From contig JADFVX010000075.1 in the NCBI GenBank assembly GCA_015222755.1, positions 1 through 37,797 of the forward strand: 37,797 bases of DNA. The letters run 5' to 3'. This document shows, one piece after another, positions 99 to 14,898 of this stretch. The notes beneath the pieces were generated by a model. It worked only from the letters and a program-made list of their open reading frames with translations. It ran no database searches and was not told the DNA's origin. Each line of letters begins with the position of its first letter. The stretch's first letter is position 1. The DNA is from Pseudomonadota bacterium. Its GTDB lineage: Bacteria; Desulfobacterota; JADFVX01. The translations under genes were made by a program, and so were the position numbers.

Positions 99-899
99 TC
101 AATACTGTCCAAGTGTTCCCGAAACCTTTGCACGCTGTGTGGCCACCGTAAAGGTCCACAGTCCCAATGGGAACAGAATCAGAGCAAAGAGCATCAAGGC
201 AGTTAGTTCTGGTAGGAGCTCCATAGGGCTTGCGCCCAAGAGGATCGCTTTGCGGATTCCGGCCAGTGCGTGCGTGAACGGGAAAAACTGGGCAACAGTT
301 TGCAATGGTGCCGGCAGAACACTTATCGGATACAGAACGCCACTTAAGACAACCGTTGCGCCTGTGAGGATCGTGGTTGCGATCTCGCCGCGCTTGATGG
401 TCAGTGTGAGACTTGCTGTCAGAATCCCGAGTGCTGCGAAACTCAGGATGGCAAGGGACATAGACAGTAAAAACGATAGAATGTTAGCGTGGCTCAAATC
501 GAGCCCGAAAAACAAGCCTGTTAACAAGTAGACCATGAACCGTAAGGATGTAAATACGTAACCCCAAAGGGAAGAATAGAGAAGGATGACTGAAACCGGC
601 GTCGGCGAAAGCATAACGATCTCAAGGGTACCCATCATCTGGTGTTCCCGGATGCTCGTGTTAAAAGAGGAGAGGCTGATCGTCGTATAGTCCTGGAATG
701 CTATGCCGAGCAGGAGAAACGGGAAATACACTCCGCCGTATGGCTTGAGGGAGGCAGATTCGGCACCTCCGAAGACCTGGGTGACATAGAAAAGAACCGG
801 CACAAAAAAGGCGATCCCGACCAGCTCTATCACTAAAGCGCCACGGTAGCTGATTTTCAGCAGGAAATCCCTACGTATAAAGGCCCAAGCCAAACGCAT
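99..899 (-). CDS. ABC-2 type transporter permease
   Basis: 266 aa, about six hydrophobic segments, directly abuts an ABC ATPase gene (stop/start at 899). Confidence 0.85.
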   Translation of the reverse strand: MRLAWAFIRRDFLLKISYRGALVIELVGIAFFVPVLFYVTQVFGGAESASLKPYGGVYFPFLLLGIAFQDYTTISLSSFNTSIREHQMMGTLEIVMLSPTPVSVILLYSSLWGYVFTSLRFMVYLLTGLFFGLDLSHANILSFLLSMSLAILSFAALGILTASLTLTIKRGEIATTILTGATVVLSGVLYPISVLPAPLQTVAQFFPFTHALAGIRKAILLGASPMELLPELTALMLFALILFPLGLWTFTVATQRAKVSGTLGQY

Positions 900-1909
900 T
901 ACAGCTTACCTCCAGTGGAAGATGAGATAATACGGCTGAATATCTCCTGTAGTGAAGCGGACACCTCACTACAGTGTGTGACCTCGCCACCACCGGAGAG
1001 TAAGGTGCGGAGGACATCCGATATAACACCGTTCCTACCGCTTAGCGTTATTTCAAGATGGGTAATCCCTTCGTGTCGTGAACTTTGGACCCCTACGATA
1101 TCTCTCATTCCCTCAATTACCTCCAGGCAACCTGGCTGAAGTTTGCTTACTATGAGCCTATACGACTTGTCCGTTGAGACGCTCTGACTGAGTTCATAAA
1201 TTGTTCCGCAGTGAAGGATCCTGGAGCGGCCCATAATGGCAACCTTGGTGCACAACTGCTCTATCTCCTTCATGTTGTGCGAGGTCATTATGACCGTGGG
1301 ACTCCATAAGGCCATGATCCGCTCCCGGATCAGGTGGATAAGTTCAGTTGATGCGAGTGGATCAAGCCCTTTGGTTGGCTCGTCCATAAAGATAACACTC
1401 GGCCGGTGCAGCAGCCCTCTGGCGAAAGCAAAACGTTGGCGGATACCGGTAGAGTAGCTATCGAACCTGCGATCAGCGTAGGGCCGGAGGTCTAAGACGT
1501 CAAGCAGCTCTTCTATCCAACTTTCGCTTTCCCGATGGGAAATATGATAAAGGTTGGAGAAGAAATGCAGGTTCTGTCTTCCCGTTAACCGCCAGTAAAA
1601 GCTGCGCTCGTTACTTGTTACAAGTCCGACAAACCGCCGGACATCTGAAGCCTCCGTCAACACATCCTTATCACCTACCCACGCCGAACCAGATGTGGGA
1701 ATAATGAGCGTACAGAGGATATTAATGAGGGTCGTCTTGCCGGCCCCGTTCGGCCCCACCAGTCCCAATATCTCGCCCTTATCTACAGTCAGTGATACAC
1801 GATCGAGCGCAACGACCTCTTCGGTGTTCTTCCGTTCTCTATGGAACGATGAGAAGAGGGCGGTATTGGGGTAGACCTTGACAACATCCTTTAACTCAAT
1901 AGCCTTCAT
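899..1909 (-). CDS. ABC transporter ATP-binding protein
   Basis: Walker A GPNGAGKTT, signature-like STGIRQRFAFARGLLHRP, Walker B VIFMDEPTKGLDP, H-loop MTSHNM. Confidence 0.95.
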   Translation of the reverse strand: MKAIELKDVVKVYPNTALFSSFHRERKNTEEVVALDRVSLTVDKGEILGLVGPNGAGKTTLINILCTLIIPTSGSAWVGDKDVLTEASDVRRFVGLVTSNERSFYWRLTGRQNLHFFSNLYHISHRESESWIEELLDVLDLRPYADRRFDSYSTGIRQRFAFARGLLHRPSVIFMDEPTKGLDPLASTELIHLIRERIMALWSPTVIMTSHNMKEIEQLCTKVAIMGRSRILHCGTIYELSQSVSTDKSYRLIVSKLQPGCLEVIEGMRDIVGVQSSRHEGITHLEITLSGRNGVISDVLRTLLSGGGEVTHCSEVSASLQEIFSRIISSSTGGKL

Positions 1910-2047: not shown

Positions 2048-3238
2048 TCATGAGGAGGGTTCCGGTACGTAGCTGTCACTGCCGTTGACGACCTGCTCAT
2101 ACACCGCCTCTGTAAGCTCGGCATACCGGTCCCATGAGTACAGCTCGGCGGTCTCTCTACATCTTTTACCTATACTCTTACCCAACTCTGGATTCTCCAT
2201 GAGAGTGCGGATCCTCTCTGCCATCTCATTGACATCCCACGGGCAGCCAACGACAAAACCGTTATGGCCATCCCGTATCACCTCGTCTCCGAATGCGACA
2301 GTTCGCGCAGTAACAACGGGAAGCCCTGATGCCATAGCTTCCAAAACAACAAGCCCAAACGATTCATACAAACTTGGAAAAAGCAGCGCATCGACCGCAC
2401 CGTAGTAACGCCAAACCTCCCGGTCCTGGCCGACAAATACAACACGACGTGACAGCATTAGACCTTCAAGCAAATCCTGAGAACCGGGAATACTTTTGGG
2501 GTCTCCGGCCCCAACAACAACAAGGACTGCCTTCTCAGGAAGGCGGGCAATGGTCTCTATAGCATAACGGACGCCTTTATAACGGAAATCGTTCCCGATA
2601 AAGAGGAGAAGAAACTGGTCATCTCGAAATCCGAGATCGGCCCTTGTCCTCTTCCGCCACTGCTTAACCAACTGTGGATGGAAAAGATCAAGGTCAACCC
2701 CGTTGGGAATGACCGGAACCTCCTCTGGCTGCCGCCGACTAAAGCTGACGACTTCCTGCCGTACCCGCTCTGTTACGGCTGTAATCAATGTCTTTCGGTG
2801 CAAAATGTGATAACTAAACAGCAGTAGCTGTATGTAGTCGATAAGTATCCGCCGATACAAAACGTCCCTGCGCGGTCTGCTCGGGAAGCGCCGCATGCTC
2901 CGGAAGGCTGACAGAAAAACACCGTGAGAGGTAAGCACCTGCGCCGGTAACAACACAGGAGCATGAAGGTGGACCACGTCAAAGCACTCACGTTTCACCT
3001 CTGTGCGAACCCGTAGAATGAACTCACACTCAGCCGGATATTGTCGACGAAAGCGCAAATCTATCTTGTGAACGTTGACTCCTTCCGGAGGTGATTGCTC
3101 AAAGGCACTGGCAAATATATGAACCTCATGGCTGGAAACCAGACGGTTTGCCAACTCCACTACGCACCGACTGACGCCCTCATACGTATTATAGCTCCAT
3201 GTCACCAGTGCAATCTTCACCGGCGTTTTTCCCTGCAC
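2048..3238 (-). CDS. Glycosyltransferase family 4 (GT4-like)
   Basis: GT-B features: VIPNGVDLDLFHP, LLFIGNDFRYKGV, LFPSLYESFGLVVLEAMASGLPVV. Confidence 0.92.
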   Translation of the reverse strand: MQGKTPVKIALVTWSYNTYEGVSRCVVELANRLVSSHEVHIFASAFEQSPPEGVNVHKIDLRFRRQYPAECEFILRVRTEVKRECFDVVHLHAPVLLPAQVLTSHGVFLSAFRSMRRFPSRPRRDVLYRRILIDYIQLLLFSYHILHRKTLITAVTERVRQEVVSFSRRQPEEVPVIPNGVDLDLFHPQLVKQWRKRTRADLGFRDDQFLLLFIGNDFRYKGVRYAIETIARLPEKAVLVVVGAGDPKSIPGSQDLLEGLMLSRRVVFVGQDREVWRYYGAVDALLFPSLYESFGLVVLEAMASGLPVVTARTVAFGDEVIRDGHNGFVVGCPWDVNEMAERIRTLMENPELGKSIGKRCRETAELYSWDRYAELTEAVYEQVVNGSDSYVPEPSS

Positions 3239-4570: not shown

Positions 4571-6538
4571 TCAAAGAGAGCACAGTATCTCCAGATTCCT
4601 ATCGTTTTGCTCAGGGCGGGCGATCGGGAATATAATATAGCGATCCTTTAACACCCCTCTGGATAAAAAGATTCCTTCTTCTTCAAATGCGCTATAGACC
4701 TTCTCCGGCGGTATCGGGGTCTCTACCAGCATGAAATGAATCTCGCTCGGAAGATAGTCAAGTCCCGCTGAGGCCAAGCGCTTCTGGATGCGCACCCTCT
4801 CCCGATTCGTATTCTCTAATATCCGGGTTGCATACTCCTTGTCTTCGAGAGCAAGAATGGCCGCCGACTCTGCAATAGGCGACAAGGCAAAAAGTGGCTC
4901 AAGCCGATTAAAAAGTTGTAACGCCTTTGGTGAAGCAAAAGCATAACCAATTCGCAAAGCAGCTAGTCCGTAAAATTTAGAGAATGTTCTTAATCCGATA
5001 ACAAGCCGGTCGGTTTCACCTATTATCTCATTAGTACGCAAGGTTTGTGGGTTTGTACTAAACTCGATATATGCCTCATCCACTACAACGGGGATATGCG
5101 CCGGAATGCGTTGAAGAAAATGCATAAATTCATCCCTGTCTATACCGACACCCAGCGGATTGCTGGGATTTATAAGATAGATTAGACGTGTATTAACAGT
5201 GATTTCCCCTGCCATAGTGTCAAGATCAAAATGAAACCTCCCATTGGTCTTTTTAAATGGGACACTGCGATTCACCACACCTAAAGCGGCACAGTATCGA
5301 TCAAACATGAACCATCCTGGGGCAGTAGTAAGAGCCTCTTTGCCTGGAGGAACAAAGGTCCGGACAGCACGTTCAACCAACTCTGAAGACCCGTTTCCAA
5401 AAGTAAAACAATCCTCTGAAATTTCAAGGTGTTCGCTCAGTTTTTTTCTGAGTGATGGATATCGCTCATCAGGATAACGCGCAAAGTTGGCATCATTTGC
5501 CATACGAGTCAAAAGACCACGAACACTTTCAGGCATCCCATAACAATTCTCAGCTCGGTCAAAGCAAACGATATCAGGATCAAGCCGATTTATGACTTTA
5601 TCGTCTTTCTTAAGAGGTGGAAAAACCATACGATCCAGCATTGTGAGAGGACTTGTCAATATTGTCTCTATTTCTCTATCTTTCTCTAACCCCCAAGCTG
5701 ACAGAATCCGTCCATGGATCTGGATTCCCGGTACTGAAGCCATATAGAGAAACAGAGGAACCACTGTCTCAGGTGGTGAAAGGGTCAGAAAATAATCCAG
5801 TGAAAAAAACGATTTTGACATTTCGGTTTGCAATGAGCCAAGCTCAATACCCGCTACAGTTATGTTGTTCCATCCTGCATCAAGCGCCGTAGTACTTGTC
5901 AAAGATTCAAGTCCACATTTACTCACAATGTAAGGGGACATTTTCGGCATTTGTGTATGAGTTGCTCCTGTAGAAACATTAATAATACGTCCTGAAACTC
6001 CATTGTTCATCATCCAGGTAGCAACTAATCTTGAGCAGAGAAAAGCCCCGGTAATGTTGACTGCCATTACTTCCCGCCACTCTTTGGGTGTTATCTCCCA
6101 TACATGGCTCTTGCATGGGCCCAGTAAAGCCGCATTGTTAATTAATATATCAATTCTGTCAAACTCTCTAATGGCCGTGTCAACCAACTGCTGTGCACCC
6201 GCATCTTCAGAAATGTCTGCACATATGCCGGTTGCAGTACCTCCTGCCTTTCTTATTTCCTGAACAGCCTGATCCACAGCACCTTTAGACCGTCCGTTCA
6301 CGACAACCTTGGCCTTTGCATCAGCAAAGGACTTGGCAACGGCCAAACCTACACCTCTGGTAGATCCCGTTATAACAACAACTTGCCCACTAATATCCTT
6401 CCGGGATGTATCTTCCTTAATATGTTTAAGTACCTTGGTAATTTCATCTGGTTCAATTAGACGCGTCCACAGATGTAGTACTCGGCTTACAACACGTCTT
6501 ATTATCCAGCTAAGCTTTCTAGTAATCCTATTACTCAT
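4571..6538 (-). CDS. Fusion: short-chain dehydrogenase/reductase + PLP-dependent class I/II aminotransferase (HisC-like)
   Basis: SDR: TGSTRGVG, INNAALLG, S...YIVSK. Aminotransferase: NPSNPLG, VVVDEAYIEF, TFSKFYGLAALRIGY. Both in one continuous 655-aa ORF. Confidence 0.9.
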   Translation of the reverse strand: MSNRITRKLSWIIRRVVSRVLHLWTRLIEPDEITKVLKHIKEDTSRKDISGQVVVITGSTRGVGLAVAKSFADAKAKVVVNGRSKGAVDQAVQEIRKAGGTATGICADISEDAGAQQLVDTAIREFDRIDILINNAALLGPCKSHVWEITPKEWREVMAVNITGAFLCSRLVATWMMNNGVSGRIINVSTGATHTQMPKMSPYIVSKCGLESLTSTTALDAGWNNITVAGIELGSLQTEMSKSFFSLDYFLTLSPPETVVPLFLYMASVPGIQIHGRILSAWGLEKDREIETILTSPLTMLDRMVFPPLKKDDKVINRLDPDIVCFDRAENCYGMPESVRGLLTRMANDANFARYPDERYPSLRKKLSEHLEISEDCFTFGNGSSELVERAVRTFVPPGKEALTTAPGWFMFDRYCAALGVVNRSVPFKKTNGRFHFDLDTMAGEITVNTRLIYLINPSNPLGVGIDRDEFMHFLQRIPAHIPVVVDEAYIEFSTNPQTLRTNEIIGETDRLVIGLRTFSKFYGLAALRIGYAFASPKALQLFNRLEPLFALSPIAESAAILALEDKEYATRILENTNRERVRIQKRLASAGLDYLPSEIHFMLVETPIPPEKVYSAFEEEGIFLSRGVLKDRYIIFPIARPEQNDRNLEILCSL

Positions 6539-6554
6539 AATACTTTTCCTTATT

Positions 6555-7724
6555 CTAATTTTGGGTAAAACCAGCCTTACGATAACCTTGTATTTTTCTT
6601 TTTATCTCTTCAAAACAGTTAATTATACTTGAATACAAATGATTGTTATAAACCACAAGCTGTTCAAACCCTCTTATCTCAGATGCCCATCTTTCAGAGA
6701 ACATGATACGCCCAACAAAATCCAAGCCGTTCAACTCACTTTCCCATATATCTTTAAAGATATGAGCAATGAGCGTTGAACCAGGTGAACAGGCATTTGA
6801 AGCAAACTTTTCTTTAGAAGATGTTTTAATCGTATATAAAGTCCTATCATCACGTAGGCATAGAAAAGCTGAAGCGGGTTCCCCTGAAACCCGCAGAACC
6901 CATATCTGACAGTGGCTCTTCTTAACACACTGCCTTGCCAGATCCGCATAGTAAGCGCCTATCGTTGTATTTAAGGCAAGGCTTTCTCCGGCCCTTGCTT
7001 TCCAACTTTCACCATCGATCTCCATGAACAGCCGTAATCCAATATCGATTGTCTCAGGCTTATCAAAACACTCCACCCTTAAAGCCCCCATAATTTCAAG
7101 AGAACGCTCCGAACGACGCATCTGCTGACGAAAATTCCTGCTCTTTTGTGCAAGATACTGTTCCCATGTTCCATCAAAAGCAATGTATGAATGATGCCAA
7201 GGTGAACTCTCGTAAGTCTTTAACCCCATTCGAGTAATTTCATTGCGAAATGCAGCTATAACTCCAGATCTTTGGGAAATACCATCCAGCAGCATGACAT
7301 CCCAAGCTTTGCTCTTTGATAAAAAGTTAACTATAGCAGCAATTGCTTCCTTGGGGTTACATGTCAGTACGATTCCACTACGCGGTGCATGACTGTTCAG
7401 TGGAGGCGCCAGTATCCGTGCCGGACATCTTCTCCATTGCCCCCTAAGCAAAATCAATGGAGCAATACCTATAAGCTCGCCTTTATCCCGCACCAATATA
7501 ACATGCAGGCGTGCATCCTTCCCACCGATGCCGATCAGATTGTGGTCGTCATGAAGCTCATGAGTGCTACGTTCTGTGCCATTCCCAAAGTGTTCCCACC
7601 AGTTCAGGAACCAATCAAAGCTTGTAAAGATATCAGCGGTAGAATCCTTTATCCAAAGAGTTTCCCAAGCCTCCTCCAAGGCCCGCAACCCATCCATGGT
7701 TTCGATCAACTCAACATTTAACAT
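6555..7724 (-). CDS. GNAT/FemAB-like (CelD/BcsL-type) acyltransferase, paralogous to 3217..4473
   Basis: FTSFDWFLNWWEHFG N-terminal motif; GNAT-like C-terminal half; same layout as the 3217..4473 protein. Confidence 0.8.
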   Translation of the reverse strand: MLNVELIETMDGLRALEEAWETLWIKDSTADIFTSFDWFLNWWEHFGNGTERSTHELHDDHNLIGIGGKDARLHVILVRDKGELIGIAPLILLRGQWRRCPARILAPPLNSHAPRSGIVLTCNPKEAIAAIVNFLSKSKAWDVMLLDGISQRSGVIAAFRNEITRMGLKTYESSPWHHSYIAFDGTWEQYLAQKSRNFRQQMRRSERSLEIMGALRVECFDKPETIDIGLRLFMEIDGESWKARAGESLALNTTIGAYYADLARQCVKKSHCQIWVLRVSGEPASAFLCLRDDRTLYTIKTSSKEKFASNACSPGSTLIAHIFKDIWESELNGLDFVGRIMFSERWASEIRGFEQLVVYNNHLYSSIINCFEEIKRKIQGYRKAGFTQN

Positions 7725-7883
7725 ACTAATACCTTCCCGAATGCTGTGACCATAGCCAATGGTGAAGTTCTCAACTTAACCTTGTTTGAATCCTCGGAGC
7801 AAGTTTCAAAGAACCATTCTTCCTCTCACTACTAAACATACAATACGTCGCAGCGCATATGATCTTATAAATTGCACACCCCA

Positions 7884-9980
7884 TTAAAAGGCCGTTTCTT
7901 TTTTAACGTCATTTTCAACTTTATACAAGAGTCCTATAACGCACCAAAGTGTCTTTGTTAATAGAGCAGTTCCAAGAGATTCATATATATGGGAGACTTT
8001 CTCATATATTAAGGTCACCGCTGTCTTTAATAGACTTTTCGATTGAATAACCCTCTTTAAAAAGCTTCGTAATTTATTTGAATGCCTATACGTCAATGTT
8101 CCTGCCGGGCAAACTTGAAGAAAGTTCTTGTAAGCATTTGTTGGATAAACCGCTAAACTAAGGTACTTCCCACTAACATTCATTATAAGCCGCTTATCAA
8201 TAAGTCTTTGTATCGATAATTTGAGATCACTTTCTGCCACATCTGCCTTGAAATAATCAAGTATTTTAGAGAGTTTTTGTGCTTTGTCACAATATTCATA
8301 AATACTGCGGTCAATACCGGTTAAACGGATCCATATTTGTTGACGACAAGATCGAGTGTCTATTATGATCAAGCTTTTCTTTCTAGGGATGGCAACTAAA
8401 TGTGATCTAGGATAGGCCTTGCACCAATTGGAAGTAGTTTTTTTTAATCTCTTGAATATTTCACCTTTCAATTTTGCTTTCAAGAAATCAGATTGGTAAT
8501 AACAAGCAAGTTTTTTTAGCGATTTATATTCAAATGGATACACGTGTTTATAAGGTGTTGGTACGGAAACAGGTACTAAACCGTATTGCTCTGGGTCTTC
8601 AAAATATGGGCTGAAACGATCCAGGTGAATTACAGCTGTATTGGCAGGGGGTTGCAGGTGGTGAATCATCTCGCATATTTCGTCTATCTTTTCAGATTCG
8701 TTCTTTTCCTCAGGGAAGCCACAGAGGTGGTTCCACATAACGAAAACACCCAATTCAGTACTCCACTTAATCAATTGGATATTCTGAACAGCAGTAGTCC
8801 CTTTCTGCATAAGCTGCAGAGAATGATCACTAAGGCTTTCAATGCCCGGTTGAATCATCCTTATATTTGCCTCTGCCAACATTTTGACTTGCTCTTTAGT
8901 CAAATTAGCTTTAGTTTCACAAACAAGTTCAGCAATTGGGTTAGCTGCAAGCCGAGGAATGACTGTTTTAAAATAGTTCATATCAAGTATGCTATCAACC
9001 AACAAAACCCTGCCTATGCCATACTTTTTGACTAAATCATTCAATTCATCTAATATACGTTGCGGGGATTTACTTCTGAAGGCAATCCCTTCACCATTCA
9101 ATCCGCAAAAAGTACACTTCTTTTTTTCTCCCCACCAACAACCCCTGGAGCTTTCCATAACTAAACCAGGGACAATTTGATTTTTGAAACTGGCAGCATC
9201 AAGCTGATCAAAGTAGTCATCAAAATCTGGATAGGGCAGATCATCCAAAGTCTCACTACCGAGCGAAGTTGAAGAATCGGCAAGCGGTTGAGCCATTCTC
9301 GTAAGAATACCCGGCACGTATCGTTTACCGTCGTCATACTGTAATGACCTTAGTAGTTCCACAAATGATTTATCACCTTCACCCTGTCCAATGTAATCTA
9401 TATAGTTGAAGCATGAAAATAGTTCTTCCCCCATTTCAGACTCACAATTTCCGCCACCCATCATAGTAATGATGTTAGGATTTCTATCCTTGATCAGCTT
9501 GATTAGATAGACCGCTCCACAGTTCTGCTGAAAACTTGAGGTTACTCCAAGCACCCATGGTTGACGGGTTAATATTTTTTCAACTTCATTTTTGTAACAA
9601 TCATAAGCTTTTTTTATGAGATGAAGAACAATCTCTGAGAGACTTTTGTCGGGAAAATGTTCTATAAGTGAATGTATCTCATTATCCTCTTGAAGAACTT
9701 CCTTAACATACTGCTCCACAGCCCTTTCATTTCGTTCAAACAGCAAATGTGAAAATATAAACTCACCTAGCAACTGCCCCATAGGCTTATCAGTGATCCA
9801 TTCATGCAGGTAGGGACCAATATGCTCTGCAAAACGCAAATTCAGATAAATCAGTTCTGTCGGAAAACCTTCTTTTTCTGCCGCTGCCTTCAGCAGGCTT
9901 ACACCTAGAGATGGGCGATTTATCGAATGAAATGGCGGAATAACGAGAAAAACAGGTTTTATTTCTTCATTGTTACACAT
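7884..9980 (-). CDS. B12-binding-domain radical SAM protein, RiPP maturation radical SAM C-methyltransferase type
   Basis: N-terminal B12-binding-like region (PSLGVSLLKAA, MMGGGNCESEMGEEL, YIGQGEG); SSRGCWWGEKKKCTFCGLNGEGIAFRSKSP (CX7CX2C); C-terminal winged-helix-like LIDKRLIMNVSGKYLSLAV. Confidence 0.85.
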   Translation of the reverse strand: MCNNEEIKPVFLVIPPFHSINRPSLGVSLLKAAAEKEGFPTELIYLNLRFAEHIGPYLHEWITDKPMGQLLGEFIFSHLLFERNERAVEQYVKEVLQEDNEIHSLIEHFPDKSLSEIVLHLIKKAYDCYKNEVEKILTRQPWVLGVTSSFQQNCGAVYLIKLIKDRNPNIITMMGGGNCESEMGEELFSCFNYIDYIGQGEGDKSFVELLRSLQYDDGKRYVPGILTRMAQPLADSSTSLGSETLDDLPYPDFDDYFDQLDAASFKNQIVPGLVMESSRGCWWGEKKKCTFCGLNGEGIAFRSKSPQRILDELNDLVKKYGIGRVLLVDSILDMNYFKTVIPRLAANPIAELVCETKANLTKEQVKMLAEANIRMIQPGIESLSDHSLQLMQKGTTAVQNIQLIKWSTELGVFVMWNHLCGFPEEKNESEKIDEICEMIHHLQPPANTAVIHLDRFSPYFEDPEQYGLVPVSVPTPYKHVYPFEYKSLKKLACYYQSDFLKAKLKGEIFKRLKKTTSNWCKAYPRSHLVAIPRKKSLIIIDTRSCRQQIWIRLTGIDRSIYEYCDKAQKLSKILDYFKADVAESDLKLSIQRLIDKRLIMNVSGKYLSLAVYPTNAYKNFLQVCPAGTLTYRHSNKLRSFLKRVIQSKSLLKTAVTLIYEKVSHIYESLGTALLTKTLWCVIGLLYKVENDVKKETAF

Positions 9981-10159
9981 AAATTTACTCCTTATCCCTC
10001 AGCATAAGTAGTTTGAGGCCTTTTAAACCTGAATTTACTTCACATTCACCTTAGCCCCAAACTCGTTCATCAAGGGTCCTGCTGAAAATGTCTCCTGAAT
10101 ATTTTTAATTATTTATACGACCTCACCAACTCCAGATAGGCATGATTACAGATGCCACA

Positions 10160-10276
10160 ATCATTCACCAATACGCTTCATTACCCAACGAAGTTTTATA
10201 GTAATCCTATTACTCGCAATATTTCCTTACTATAGTTTTGAGTAAAACTATCTTTACCCTGAAGTCACGGATCCAG
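10160..10276 (-). pseudogene. Decayed remnant of a GNAT 3' end / SDR-aminotransferase 5' end junction (paralogue of about 6494-6580)
   Basis: 10173-10257 aligns with 6494-6580 at about 78% by hand count, including a 17-nt identical core (TAGTAATCCTATTACTC). Frame after the lost start reads SNRITIKLRWVMKRIGE* vs MSNRITRKLSWIIRRVV; start ATG is now GCG. Confidence 0.7.
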
Positions 10277-10390
10277 GATATTAATAGGAAAACTGCTTCA
10301 AGTGTACGGAAGTTATTGCTCCAGTGAGGATCGACCACTGAAGATGAAATATCCGCTTATTCAGTTTTAGAAGCCATAATGTAGCTATAT

Positions 10391-11185
10391 TCACGGCGTA
10401 ACTATGAAATTGGACCTACTGTCTTTGCCTGAGAGCACATCCTCTGCTTCCGGGTAAAGGATAATACCCGTTTCCAATGTTACTATCGGGTTGAGTACCG
10501 TCGCTAAATGATTGAAGAATCGATCAACCATAGCAACGTTACTGAGCGATACATAGAGAACATCACCTCTCTGAAGGTAGGCATTGTGCAATGCCAACTC
10601 ATTCTTTCCGGGTGCTTCCGATGTCAGGACTATCGGTTTTGATTGGCCATCCTTTTGTCTTCTCATAAGTACGACCTTCTGTTTTTTTGCATCGCGGTTA
10701 AATCCACCTGCAGAGCCAATTGCCTCCATTGCCGTCATCGGGCCATCGAGAAGGTAAACTCCCGGCCTGTTTACCTCCCCAAGGACATAAATCTTCTGCG
10801 ATCTTGCATTCTTCACCTGAACAGTCACCTGGGGATTGCGAAGATACTCAGATAATCCTTTGGTAAGCGCAGATTGAAACTCTGTTAGACTCATACCAGA
10901 CGCCTTAATTGCCCCAGCCAGTGGCAGCTGAACCGTCCCATTAGTTTGCACCTTGACTTCACGATTTATATCATCATGACGCCAAACTTGAATGTCCAAA
11001 GAATCGCCGGGGCCTATGATATATTCAGTTAACCGAATGGCTGGGATTTCGATTTGTTCCTGATGTTCCTGTACAATTGTTTGTTTTTGGCCCGGAGTTG
11101 TGCAACTCAGCAGGAAAGAAAAAAACAATATCCACAACTGGATGCTTTTCGATTTTATTATCTTTCCTTCCCGATTATTGTCCAT
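10391..11185 (-). CDS. Polysaccharide biosynthesis/export lipoprotein (Wza-like, SLBB)
   Basis: Lipobox FLLSC; YIIGPGDSLDIQVWRHDDINREVKVQTNGTVQLPLAGAIKASGMS; SLBB-like KIYVLGEVNRPGVYLLDGPMTAMEAIGSAGGF. Confidence 0.93.
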   Translation of the reverse strand: MDNNREGKIIKSKSIQLWILFFSFLLSCTTPGQKQTIVQEHQEQIEIPAIRLTEYIIGPGDSLDIQVWRHDDINREVKVQTNGTVQLPLAGAIKASGMSLTEFQSALTKGLSEYLRNPQVTVQVKNARSQKIYVLGEVNRPGVYLLDGPMTAMEAIGSAGGFNRDAKKQKVVLMRRQKDGQSKPIVLTSEAPGKNELALHNAYLQRGDVLYVSLSNVAMVDRFFNHLATVLNPIVTLETGIILYPEAEDVLSGKDSRSNFIVTP

Positions 11186-11259
11186 AGCTATATCACCATA
11201 TTTAGCAGATTTTAAGAATTAATAAGAGACTTGGTTTCCCATACTAAGCTAATATATCT

Positions 11260-13032
11260 CTATTTTGCCCCAACTCCCTTTATTACAGCCATTATTGTCT
11301 TTAAAAATATTTTCATATCCATTTTAAAGGACTGGCTCTTTACATAGGCGATATCGTATCTTATCCAGTCGTGGAACGATGTATCACTCCTGCCGTTTAC
11401 CTGCCATAGCCCAGTTATACCCGGCTTTACATTGAGCCTTATATCTCTCCAGCTGGGAGCAAATTTCATCTCCTCCATAACCAATGGTCTCGGTCCGATC
11501 AAGCTCATGTCGCCATTTAATACATTAAATAACTGTGGAAGTTCATCAAGACTTGTCTTCCTTAAGAACGTGCCCACCTTTGTGAGTCTTGGATCTCTAT
11601 CCATCTTGAACATTGGACCGTCGACATCATTCTCTTTCAAGAGTTTTCCTTGTATCTCGTCAGCATCTTCAATCATTGTTCTGAACTTATACATGGGGAA
11701 TTCCTGCCCGTCTTTACCGCACCTTCTCTGGCAGAAAAAAACATGTCCGCGCGAGTCCCTCTTTATAAGCAATGCGATAAAAGTAAACAGCGGCAGCAAA
11801 AAAAGCAATCCCAACAAGGAACAAATTATATCCAACAACCTTTTGGCAACAAAAAAGAGCTTGTGTTTCAATAGATTGCGTAATCTTGGCCCTGGAATAC
11901 TCATATTGAAAACGGTTTTTAAATCTTTATCATCATTAAGATTAGAAGAGACAAAGTTCAGAATACCATCACAGCTCTTATCCTGAACTACAACGGCATT
12001 TCTGACAGTTTCATCCTCTGAAACAACGCAGGACTCTCCAACAAGGCTATATTCGACACGGGACTTATTCATCAAACATGCATTTTCAAGTATTATGCTC
12101 TCGTGCACCAGAACATCATTTCCTATGTTTGATCCGCTGCCTATAGTTGAAGGCCCTATCACTTTCGAATTACCTTCTATGATACAATTGTCACCGATGA
12201 TAGCCGGCCCCAAAAGATAAGCATCCTGCGATATTTTGACATTCTTCCCAACCCAAATGCGATCACCGAACTTTTTCCAGGAACAAAATGTTTTATTGTG
12301 CTTATCCAGGCCATTCAAAAGGAGTTCCCGGTTCAGCTTAAAATAACCTGTAAGGCTATTGATTTTTATCGTCTTTGTTTCTGTCTTGTAAGTATGTACC
12401 GGAATCCCTTTAGCATTCAGGATCGGAACAAGCTGTTCCTTAATATCCATATAGCCTGTTTCCGGTATGTAGCCCAACATATCCGGCTCAAATACATATA
12501 TTCCAACGGGTCTTATATAGTGACGGTTGTCCCTTGAATGGTGGAGTATATGGAATCTTTTAACAGTTCCGTCTTCACCGACTTCAATGCGCTCAAGATC
12601 TCTCCTCCCTGGATTGTCTTCTTCTACAACTACTGTTGCCCCTGACTGCCTGCTTGTATGAAAATCTAGAATTTTAGATAAGTTCAGACCTTCAATGAAG
12701 ACATTGGAACAGATAACCCAGAATGGAGACCTTCCGAGAAAGTCTTTAAGTTCTTTTAATGACCCTGCTGTGCCTCTTGGGTAGTCCTCAAAAAAATAGG
12801 AGACCTTCACCCCTTTCGCCTCATAATTATTCAGTCTCTCGATTATATTGTCGATACTATCTATGTTACGTGGCAAGACGATGGCAACTTCCGTCACAGC
12901 ATTTTTTTTTAAAACATTTAAGTGGTGTACAAGTAAAGGAACATTACCCAAGGGCAAGGCTAACTTCGGGTAATAGTTCGCGAGAGGAAAGATTGCGCTT
13001 CCTGGACTTCCAGATAATATGACAGCCTTCAT
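11260..13032 (-). CDS. Fusion: sugar-1-phosphate nucleotidyltransferase with left-handed beta-helix + monotopic phosphoglycosyl transferase (bacterial sugar transferase)
   Basis: N-terminus MKAVILSGSPGSAIFPLANYYPKLALPLGNVPLL; hexapeptide repeats; C-terminus KRLLDIICSLLGLLFLLP, YKFRTM, KTSLDELPQLFNVLNGDMSLIGPRP, KPGITGLWQVNGRS. ORF track starts at 13044; MKAV start at 13032 preferred. Confidence 0.92.
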   Translation of the reverse strand: MKAVILSGSPGSAIFPLANYYPKLALPLGNVPLLVHHLNVLKKNAVTEVAIVLPRNIDSIDNIIERLNNYEAKGVKVSYFFEDYPRGTAGSLKELKDFLGRSPFWVICSNVFIEGLNLSKILDFHTSRQSGATVVVEEDNPGRRDLERIEVGEDGTVKRFHILHHSRDNRHYIRPVGIYVFEPDMLGYIPETGYMDIKEQLVPILNAKGIPVHTYKTETKTIKINSLTGYFKLNRELLLNGLDKHNKTFCSWKKFGDRIWVGKNVKISQDAYLLGPAIIGDNCIIEGNSKVIGPSTIGSGSNIGNDVLVHESIILENACLMNKSRVEYSLVGESCVVSEDETVRNAVVVQDKSCDGILNFVSSNLNDDKDLKTVFNMSIPGPRLRNLLKHKLFFVAKRLLDIICSLLGLLFLLPLFTFIALLIKRDSRGHVFFCQRRCGKDGQEFPMYKFRTMIEDADEIQGKLLKENDVDGPMFKMDRDPRLTKVGTFLRKTSLDELPQLFNVLNGDMSLIGPRPLVMEEMKFAPSWRDIRLNVKPGITGLWQVNGRSDTSFHDWIRYDIAYVKSQSFKMDMKIFLKTIMAVIKGVGAK

Positions 13033-13119
13033 ACTACCACCCAATTTAGAGGAAAAACGTGTAATGTATTTTTCTCTACAATAAAGTCAATATCAAAATA
13101 AGCTTAACAGCCTTATGCA

Positions 13120-14489: not shown

Positions 14490-14655
14490 ATACCTCCCCC
14501 TCTCCCGAAAAAGCAGTGTGAACTTGCAAAACTTCCACAATTCAAATCAAAAAAACAACTTTATATCATAAAAAATCCGTCGTTGCGAGATATATTGAGG
14601 GGATATTATTCTTATATCACTATTGTCTGATTAACTTTTAAACGACACTAGCTAA

Positions 14656-14898
14656 CTCAGGGAAAACAGTTTTTTCACAATTACTTCAGCATCTAACACC
14701 TTATCAACCTTATCAACCTTATCAACCTTAATAAATGCATTAATTGCTACTACCTTGGCCGATACCAACGAACTCCGGGATTACCGGATATATCAGGACT
14801 TCGGATACCATTTAATCGACTGCCACTGCTGCAATCACTGCCTGCCTCGCAGCGGTGCGCAGGAACTCATGGAAAGCTGGGGTTACGTGTGCAAATAG
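14656..14898 (+). other. Stop-to-stop open frame lacking ATG, Cys-rich C-terminus (possible non-ATG small gene or gene remnant)
   Basis: Reads ...LSTLSTLSTLINALIATTLADTNELRDYRIYQDFGYHLIDCHCCNHCLPRSGAQELMESWGYVCK*; only a TTG (14755) is available as an internal start. Confidence 0.35.
14699..14730. repeat. 9-bp tandem repeat (TTATCAACC), about 3.5 copies
   Basis: ccttatcaaccttatcaaccttatcaacctta read directly. Confidence 0.95.

Follow-up and report, generated by a model that had tools for sequence, protein, structure and literature searches.

A probable PoyB/PoyC-type B12-dependent radical SAM C-methyltransferase stranded in an exopolysaccharide locus

The window analyzed here is a 37,797-nucleotide stretch of Desulfobacterota DNA (assembly GCA_015222755.1, contig JADFVX010000075.1, positions 1 to 37,797), in which a gene of the TIGR03975 family of radical SAM enzymes lies among genes for polysaccharide assembly. 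Genome mining for RiPPs employs TIGR03975 as a rule, and the locus raises the question of what such an enzyme methylates in these surroundings. The enzyme type is already known, and no peptide substrate is recognizable close to the gene. The gene and its product feature the following elements.

7884 to 9980, minus strand: coding sequence of the B12-dependent radical SAM C-methyltransferase, TIGR03975 family, 698 amino acids, ATG start
9988 to 9992, minus strand: Shine-Dalgarno sequence AGGAG, 7 nt 5' of the ATG
9354 to 9584, minus strand: B12-binding-domain-like stretch, residues 133-209, within the N-terminal cobalamin-binding fold (Pfam PF02310 and fold match)
9105 to 9140, minus strand: [4Fe-4S] cysteine motif C281-X7-C289-X2-C292 (sequence reading and alignment)
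8688 to 9155, minus strand: radical SAM core, residues 276-431 (Pfam PF04055, 52.5 bits, over the cut-off)
8151 to 8399, minus strand: predicted RiPP-recognition-element-like winged helix, residues 528-610, with LSLA at its end (AF2 and Foldseek)
7884 to 8141, minus strand: C-terminal extension, residues 614-698 plus stop, with a P-x-G motif and then two low-confidence predicted helices

The original prediction placed the protein in a TIGR03975-like family of RiPP C-methyltransferases on the basis of its motifs. A profile search of the 698-aa protein confirmed this placement, matching TIGR03975 (rSAM_ocin_1) with 603.1 bits and an E value of 5.8e-181 over positions 1-606 of the 606-position model, against a curated cut-off of 281.85 bits. 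The score is far above chance expectation and shows full-length family membership, while identity to relatives reaches at most ~36% and the context is that of an orphan. The cysteine motif SSRGCWWGEKKKCTFCGLNG is present with the CX7CX2C spacing that had been claimed, and C281, C289, and C292 are invariant across 25 aligned proteins. In two reviews CX7CX2C appears as an unconventional motif of the polytheonamide enzymes PoyB and PoyC, and one of them ascribes it also to the bottromycin C-beta methyltransferases (PMC5682303, PMC11285071). Compared by published description, the PoyC and PoyB C-beta methyltransferases have both this motif and the cobalamin/radical SAM architecture in common with the window protein.

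The B12-binding-like N-terminus that had been proposed is better seen in the predicted fold than in the profile search, where the Pfam B12-binding domain PF02310 scored 26.9 bits, under its cut-off of 32.1. A full-length AlphaFold2 model built from the 25 aligned proteins has a mean pLDDT of 85.2 and a pTM of 0.83, and its best PDB matches over most of the length are OxsB, TsrM, TokK, MgmA, and CysS. The B12 assignment leans on the fold more than on Pfam because all five of these are cobalamin-dependent radical SAM enzymes, and the model thus predicts the N-terminal cobalamin-binding domain expected of a class B radical SAM methyltransferase. The C-terminal segment around LSLAV had been described as winged-helix-like, and AF2 models support that description. 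Modeled alone (pLDDT 90.7), residues 505-615 fold into three strands and three helices plus a hairpin. Foldseek matched this domain best to TbiB1 with its leader peptide (5v1v) and CteB (5why), with a probability of 1.00 and weak E values of 0.01-0.06. Residues 528-610 are predicted to share the winged-helix fold of the RiPP recognition elements in these two proteins, at ~10-16% identity and with E above 0.001. Topology and best matches both point to a RiPP recognition element, which is a suggestive reading and no proof. The domain is family-wide, and therefore a peptide substrate is not proven by the domain alone. The C-terminal tail that follows is the longest among the members compared.

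Relatives were surveyed across the phylum, where 67 of 395 genomes carry TIGR03975 proteins. These fall into two score groups, at 576-662 and 284-403 bits, which separate in the tree at 100/100 and mostly differ in cysteine spacing. The low-scoring clade occurs in about 50 of the 395 genomes at approximately one copy per genome, with no recurrent precursor in the loci read (including L053-L062), and it probably differs in function despite the shared family name. That the window protein belongs to this one-per-genome clade, with a non-RiPP function in the phylum, would agree with how common the clade is and with its precursor-free loci; the idea is nevertheless hardly credible, since the window protein is set apart from the clade at 100/100, scores in the high group across the gap in bits, and differs from the mostly CX4 or CX13 spacing of the low group. 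Both tree and motif contradict the membership. A sponge-metagenome study set aside antiSMASH TIGR03975 matches as likely false positives (PMC9426513), a view that agrees with the low-scoring orphan clade and not with the clade of the window protein.

In the tree the window protein stands on a long branch (1.21) beside a clade that travels with NHLP-like and Nif11 precursors and PoyD-type epimerases, with moderate support of 82/76. The P-x-G motif after LSLA is common to the window protein and the Nif11/PoyD clade. Nif11 and PoyD (8 each) lead the neighbor families of the high-scoring group, counted among 92 genes, and the families listed also include a YydG-type epimerase (2), a subtilase (2), and an NHLM exporter (1). 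Nif11 precursors adjoin relatives at three of the loci read (L044, L049, and L051), and an NHLP-like precursor at a fourth (L048) is weak, at 18.9 bits under its cut-off. On plasmids of S. meliloti, R. johnstonii, and M. huakuii the relatives are accompanied by Nif11 precursors and PoyD, and in S. globosus the relative is accompanied by a pheganomycin-family precursor. Relatives in S. clavuligerus and at L052 have no obvious precursor. The searches covered ~650 genomes of the phylum, plasmids, and the species contigs of bacteria and archaea; the relatives found were ~30-36% identical, with none above ~36%. Two further classes of the phylum held none above 35%, and viral contigs held no relative.

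These comparisons bear on the two possibilities originally left for the enzyme, a distant or unrecognizable precursor and recruitment to a glycan, lipid, or amine building block. The first fits better. A conserved precursor gene near homologues had been named as a refuting finding, and such genes do co-occur with homologues among which the window protein groups. The reading favored here, with somewhat better than even confidence, is that the gene encodes a PoyB/PoyC-type B12-dependent radical SAM peptide C-methyltransferase, probably acquired horizontally and stranded in an exopolysaccharide locus. By analogy with the family, an unactivated sp3 carbon would be methylated by the joint action of a 5'-deoxyadenosyl radical from the cluster and methylcobalamin bound in the N-terminal domain. 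Characterized relatives suggest a peptide target, most likely at the C-beta of a hydrophobic residue, and the C-terminal winged helix may capture this peptide by its leader. The peptide partner might be unlinked or lost, carry a leader of an undescribed type, or be encoded beyond the contig end or where the genome is unassembled.

The surroundings of the gene were described correctly in the original prediction, which named GNATs, an SDR-aminotransferase, a Wza-like lipoprotein, and a sugar transferase, and found no convincing precursor in the two flanking gaps.

11260 to 13044, minus strand: fusion of a nucleotidyltransferase and a bacterial sugar transferase
10391 to 11185, minus strand: Poly_export/SLBB outer-membrane polysaccharide export lipoprotein
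9981 to 10390, no strand: upstream gap of 410 nt without a leader-like ORF (small-ORF inspection)
7725 to 7883, no strand: downstream gap of 159 nt without a precursor-like ORF (small-ORF inspection)
6555 to 7724, minus strand: Acetyltransf_6 (PF13480) GNAT
4571 to 6538, minus strand: fusion of an SDR and a class I/II aminotransferase (HisC/CobD-like), 655 aa
3217 to 4473, minus strand: second Acetyltransf_6 (PF13480) GNAT
2048 to 3238, minus strand: GT4 glycosyltransferase
99 to 1909, minus strand: ABC-2 permease and DrrA-like ATPase

On its downstream side the locus reaches the end of the contig (window position 1), and its downstream part therefore falls outside the view. It does not classify as an XrtA/PEP-CTERM exopolysaccharide locus, as its export protein scores 119.4 bits against the 180-bit TIGR03027 cut-off. 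Promoter-like sites occur at chance frequency, with none within the 410-nt gap and no promoter or terminator setting the gene apart, and no RNA family was found at 7000-11500. A short run of KVDKVDKVDKV-coding repeats lies between genes at 14652-14768 of the window, before a LuxR-type regulator gene.

In both gaps together the sole small ORF with an ATG and a recognizable ribosome-binding site has 11 codons (10035-10070, minus strand). Its product, MNEFGAKVNVK, was rejected as a minimal precursor, being too short for leader and core, with a ribosome-binding site of four bases. Genome-wide searches returned no NHLP leader and no C39 exporter/protease; the best Nif11 leader (12.8 bits) and the best PoyD epimerase (15.2 bits, partial) were both under cut-off. 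Comparison of the relatives' precursors with small ORFs in ~1.4 Mb of the same genome gave nothing better than E 0.36. Only this one TIGR03975 protein was found in the genome, and the seven other classified radical SAM enzymes (ArsS, MoaA, YgiQ, TIGR03960, RlmN, HemN, and MtaB) include no RiPP maturase. The genome is a MAG of 1.9 Mb in 142 contigs, 86% complete, and a comparison of overlapping ends across stretches of C1-C121 gave no adjoining contig. The absence of a precursor must be read with this completeness in mind, as well as the truncation of the contig at window position 1 and possible undescribed precursor types. Unlike the systems of PoyC and PoyB, the window genome is without a detected precursor, epimerase, or C39 exporter, and its enzyme features an exopolysaccharide context and extra C-terminal helices.

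This lack of a known-type precursor genome-wide, together with the polysaccharide genes of the same strand on either side, would be expected if the enzyme had been recruited to methylate a non-ribosomal product made by the locus itself, for example an amino-acid or amino-sugar building block. Such a block could come from the SDR-aminotransferase and the GNATs, with the ABC pair as its exporter. A precedent is DscE, the discodermin cobalamin-dependent radical SAM C-methyltransferase, which acts on a non-ribosomal peptide (PMC12858407). DscE resembles the window enzyme in being an enzyme of this kind outside a RiPP cluster, but it has an NRPS partner, and in the window genome no NRPS condensation domain was found over the cut-off. 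Family members without obvious precursors, such as that of S. clavuligerus, also accord with recruitment. The neighborhoods argue the other way: RiPP precursors co-occur with homologues, whereas exopolysaccharide genes do not recur near relatives among the first 25 neighbor families listed, a depth at which a lone polysaccharide gene beside one relative could escape. The same arrangement was found in no other genome searched, and a search of 58 relatives at 1e-60 gave no match to the SDR-aminotransferase fusion. The 410- and 159-nt gaps part the gene from its neighbors, while the downstream genes are mostly closer-spaced. An enzyme recruited to act on a glycan or an amino-acid building block is possible, and no positive support for one emerged here; action on a non-ribosomal product of the locus is judged unlikely.

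In a more specific form, a PoyC-type peptide methyltransferase would have been rewired for C-methylation of a building block, amino acid or sugar, from which an exported glycoconjugate is made; this version is considered very unlikely. We know of no TIGR03975-family member that serves polysaccharide assembly, and an enzyme rewired in this way would be the first of its family to do so.

The composition of the gene is atypical. Its GC content of 0.384 compares with a genome mean of 0.478; it ranks at the 2nd percentile of 880 genes and is the lowest among window genes of at least 100 aa. Horizontal acquisition is probable, since atypical GC is combined with the lack of any relative above ~36% identity. 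The adjoining sugar-transferase gene is AT-rich too, though less so, and neighboring polysaccharide genes are somewhat AT-rich; the transfer may therefore have taken in more than one gene. Atypical composition, absent partner genes, and the lack of close relatives would all suit a relic, namely a RiPP gene that arrived horizontally, was left without substrate and partners, and has no specific present role. That history is quite unlikely, as decay is expected of a long-idle gene and the ORF is intact: no frameshift or internal stop interrupts it, every invariant residue is present, and its ribosome-binding site is good. For the peptide C-methyltransferase reading, the family score, CX7CX2C, tree placement, P-x-G motif, relatives' precursors, fold, and low GC were counted in favor, and the missing flank precursor, the lack of RiPP partners over cut-off genome-wide, the moderate tree support, and the E values of the recognition-element match were counted against.

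The survey suggests that a TIGR03975 match alone does not predict a precursor, because members of the high-scoring clade usually have one nearby, those of the low-scoring clade do not, and the window gene is an exception. As a high-scoring exception, the window gene offers a clean test of whether enzymes of this kind can function in the absence of a clustered peptide.

The loci of other family members feature several further genes. On a Paracoccus plasmid an unannotated Cys-rich ORF of 130 aa lies directly upstream of the TIGR03975 gene (L192:6571-6963); it contains repeated CVIQQC/CVISQC-like units and is likely a new precursor type. TIGR03975 genes of two families adjoin subtilase (S8) genes (L046:8324-12609 and L047:9395-13985), and a small ORF at 8324-8773 of L046 resembles a protease propeptide. 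Homologous AprA-MT2-like methyltransferases are found near TIGR03975 genes in two families (L044:13824-15470 and L045:381-2021). Directly upstream of a Pyrinomonadaceae TIGR03975 gene lies an MvdD-like ATP-grasp pre-domain protein (L002:9001-9963), possibly a graspetide-type partner.
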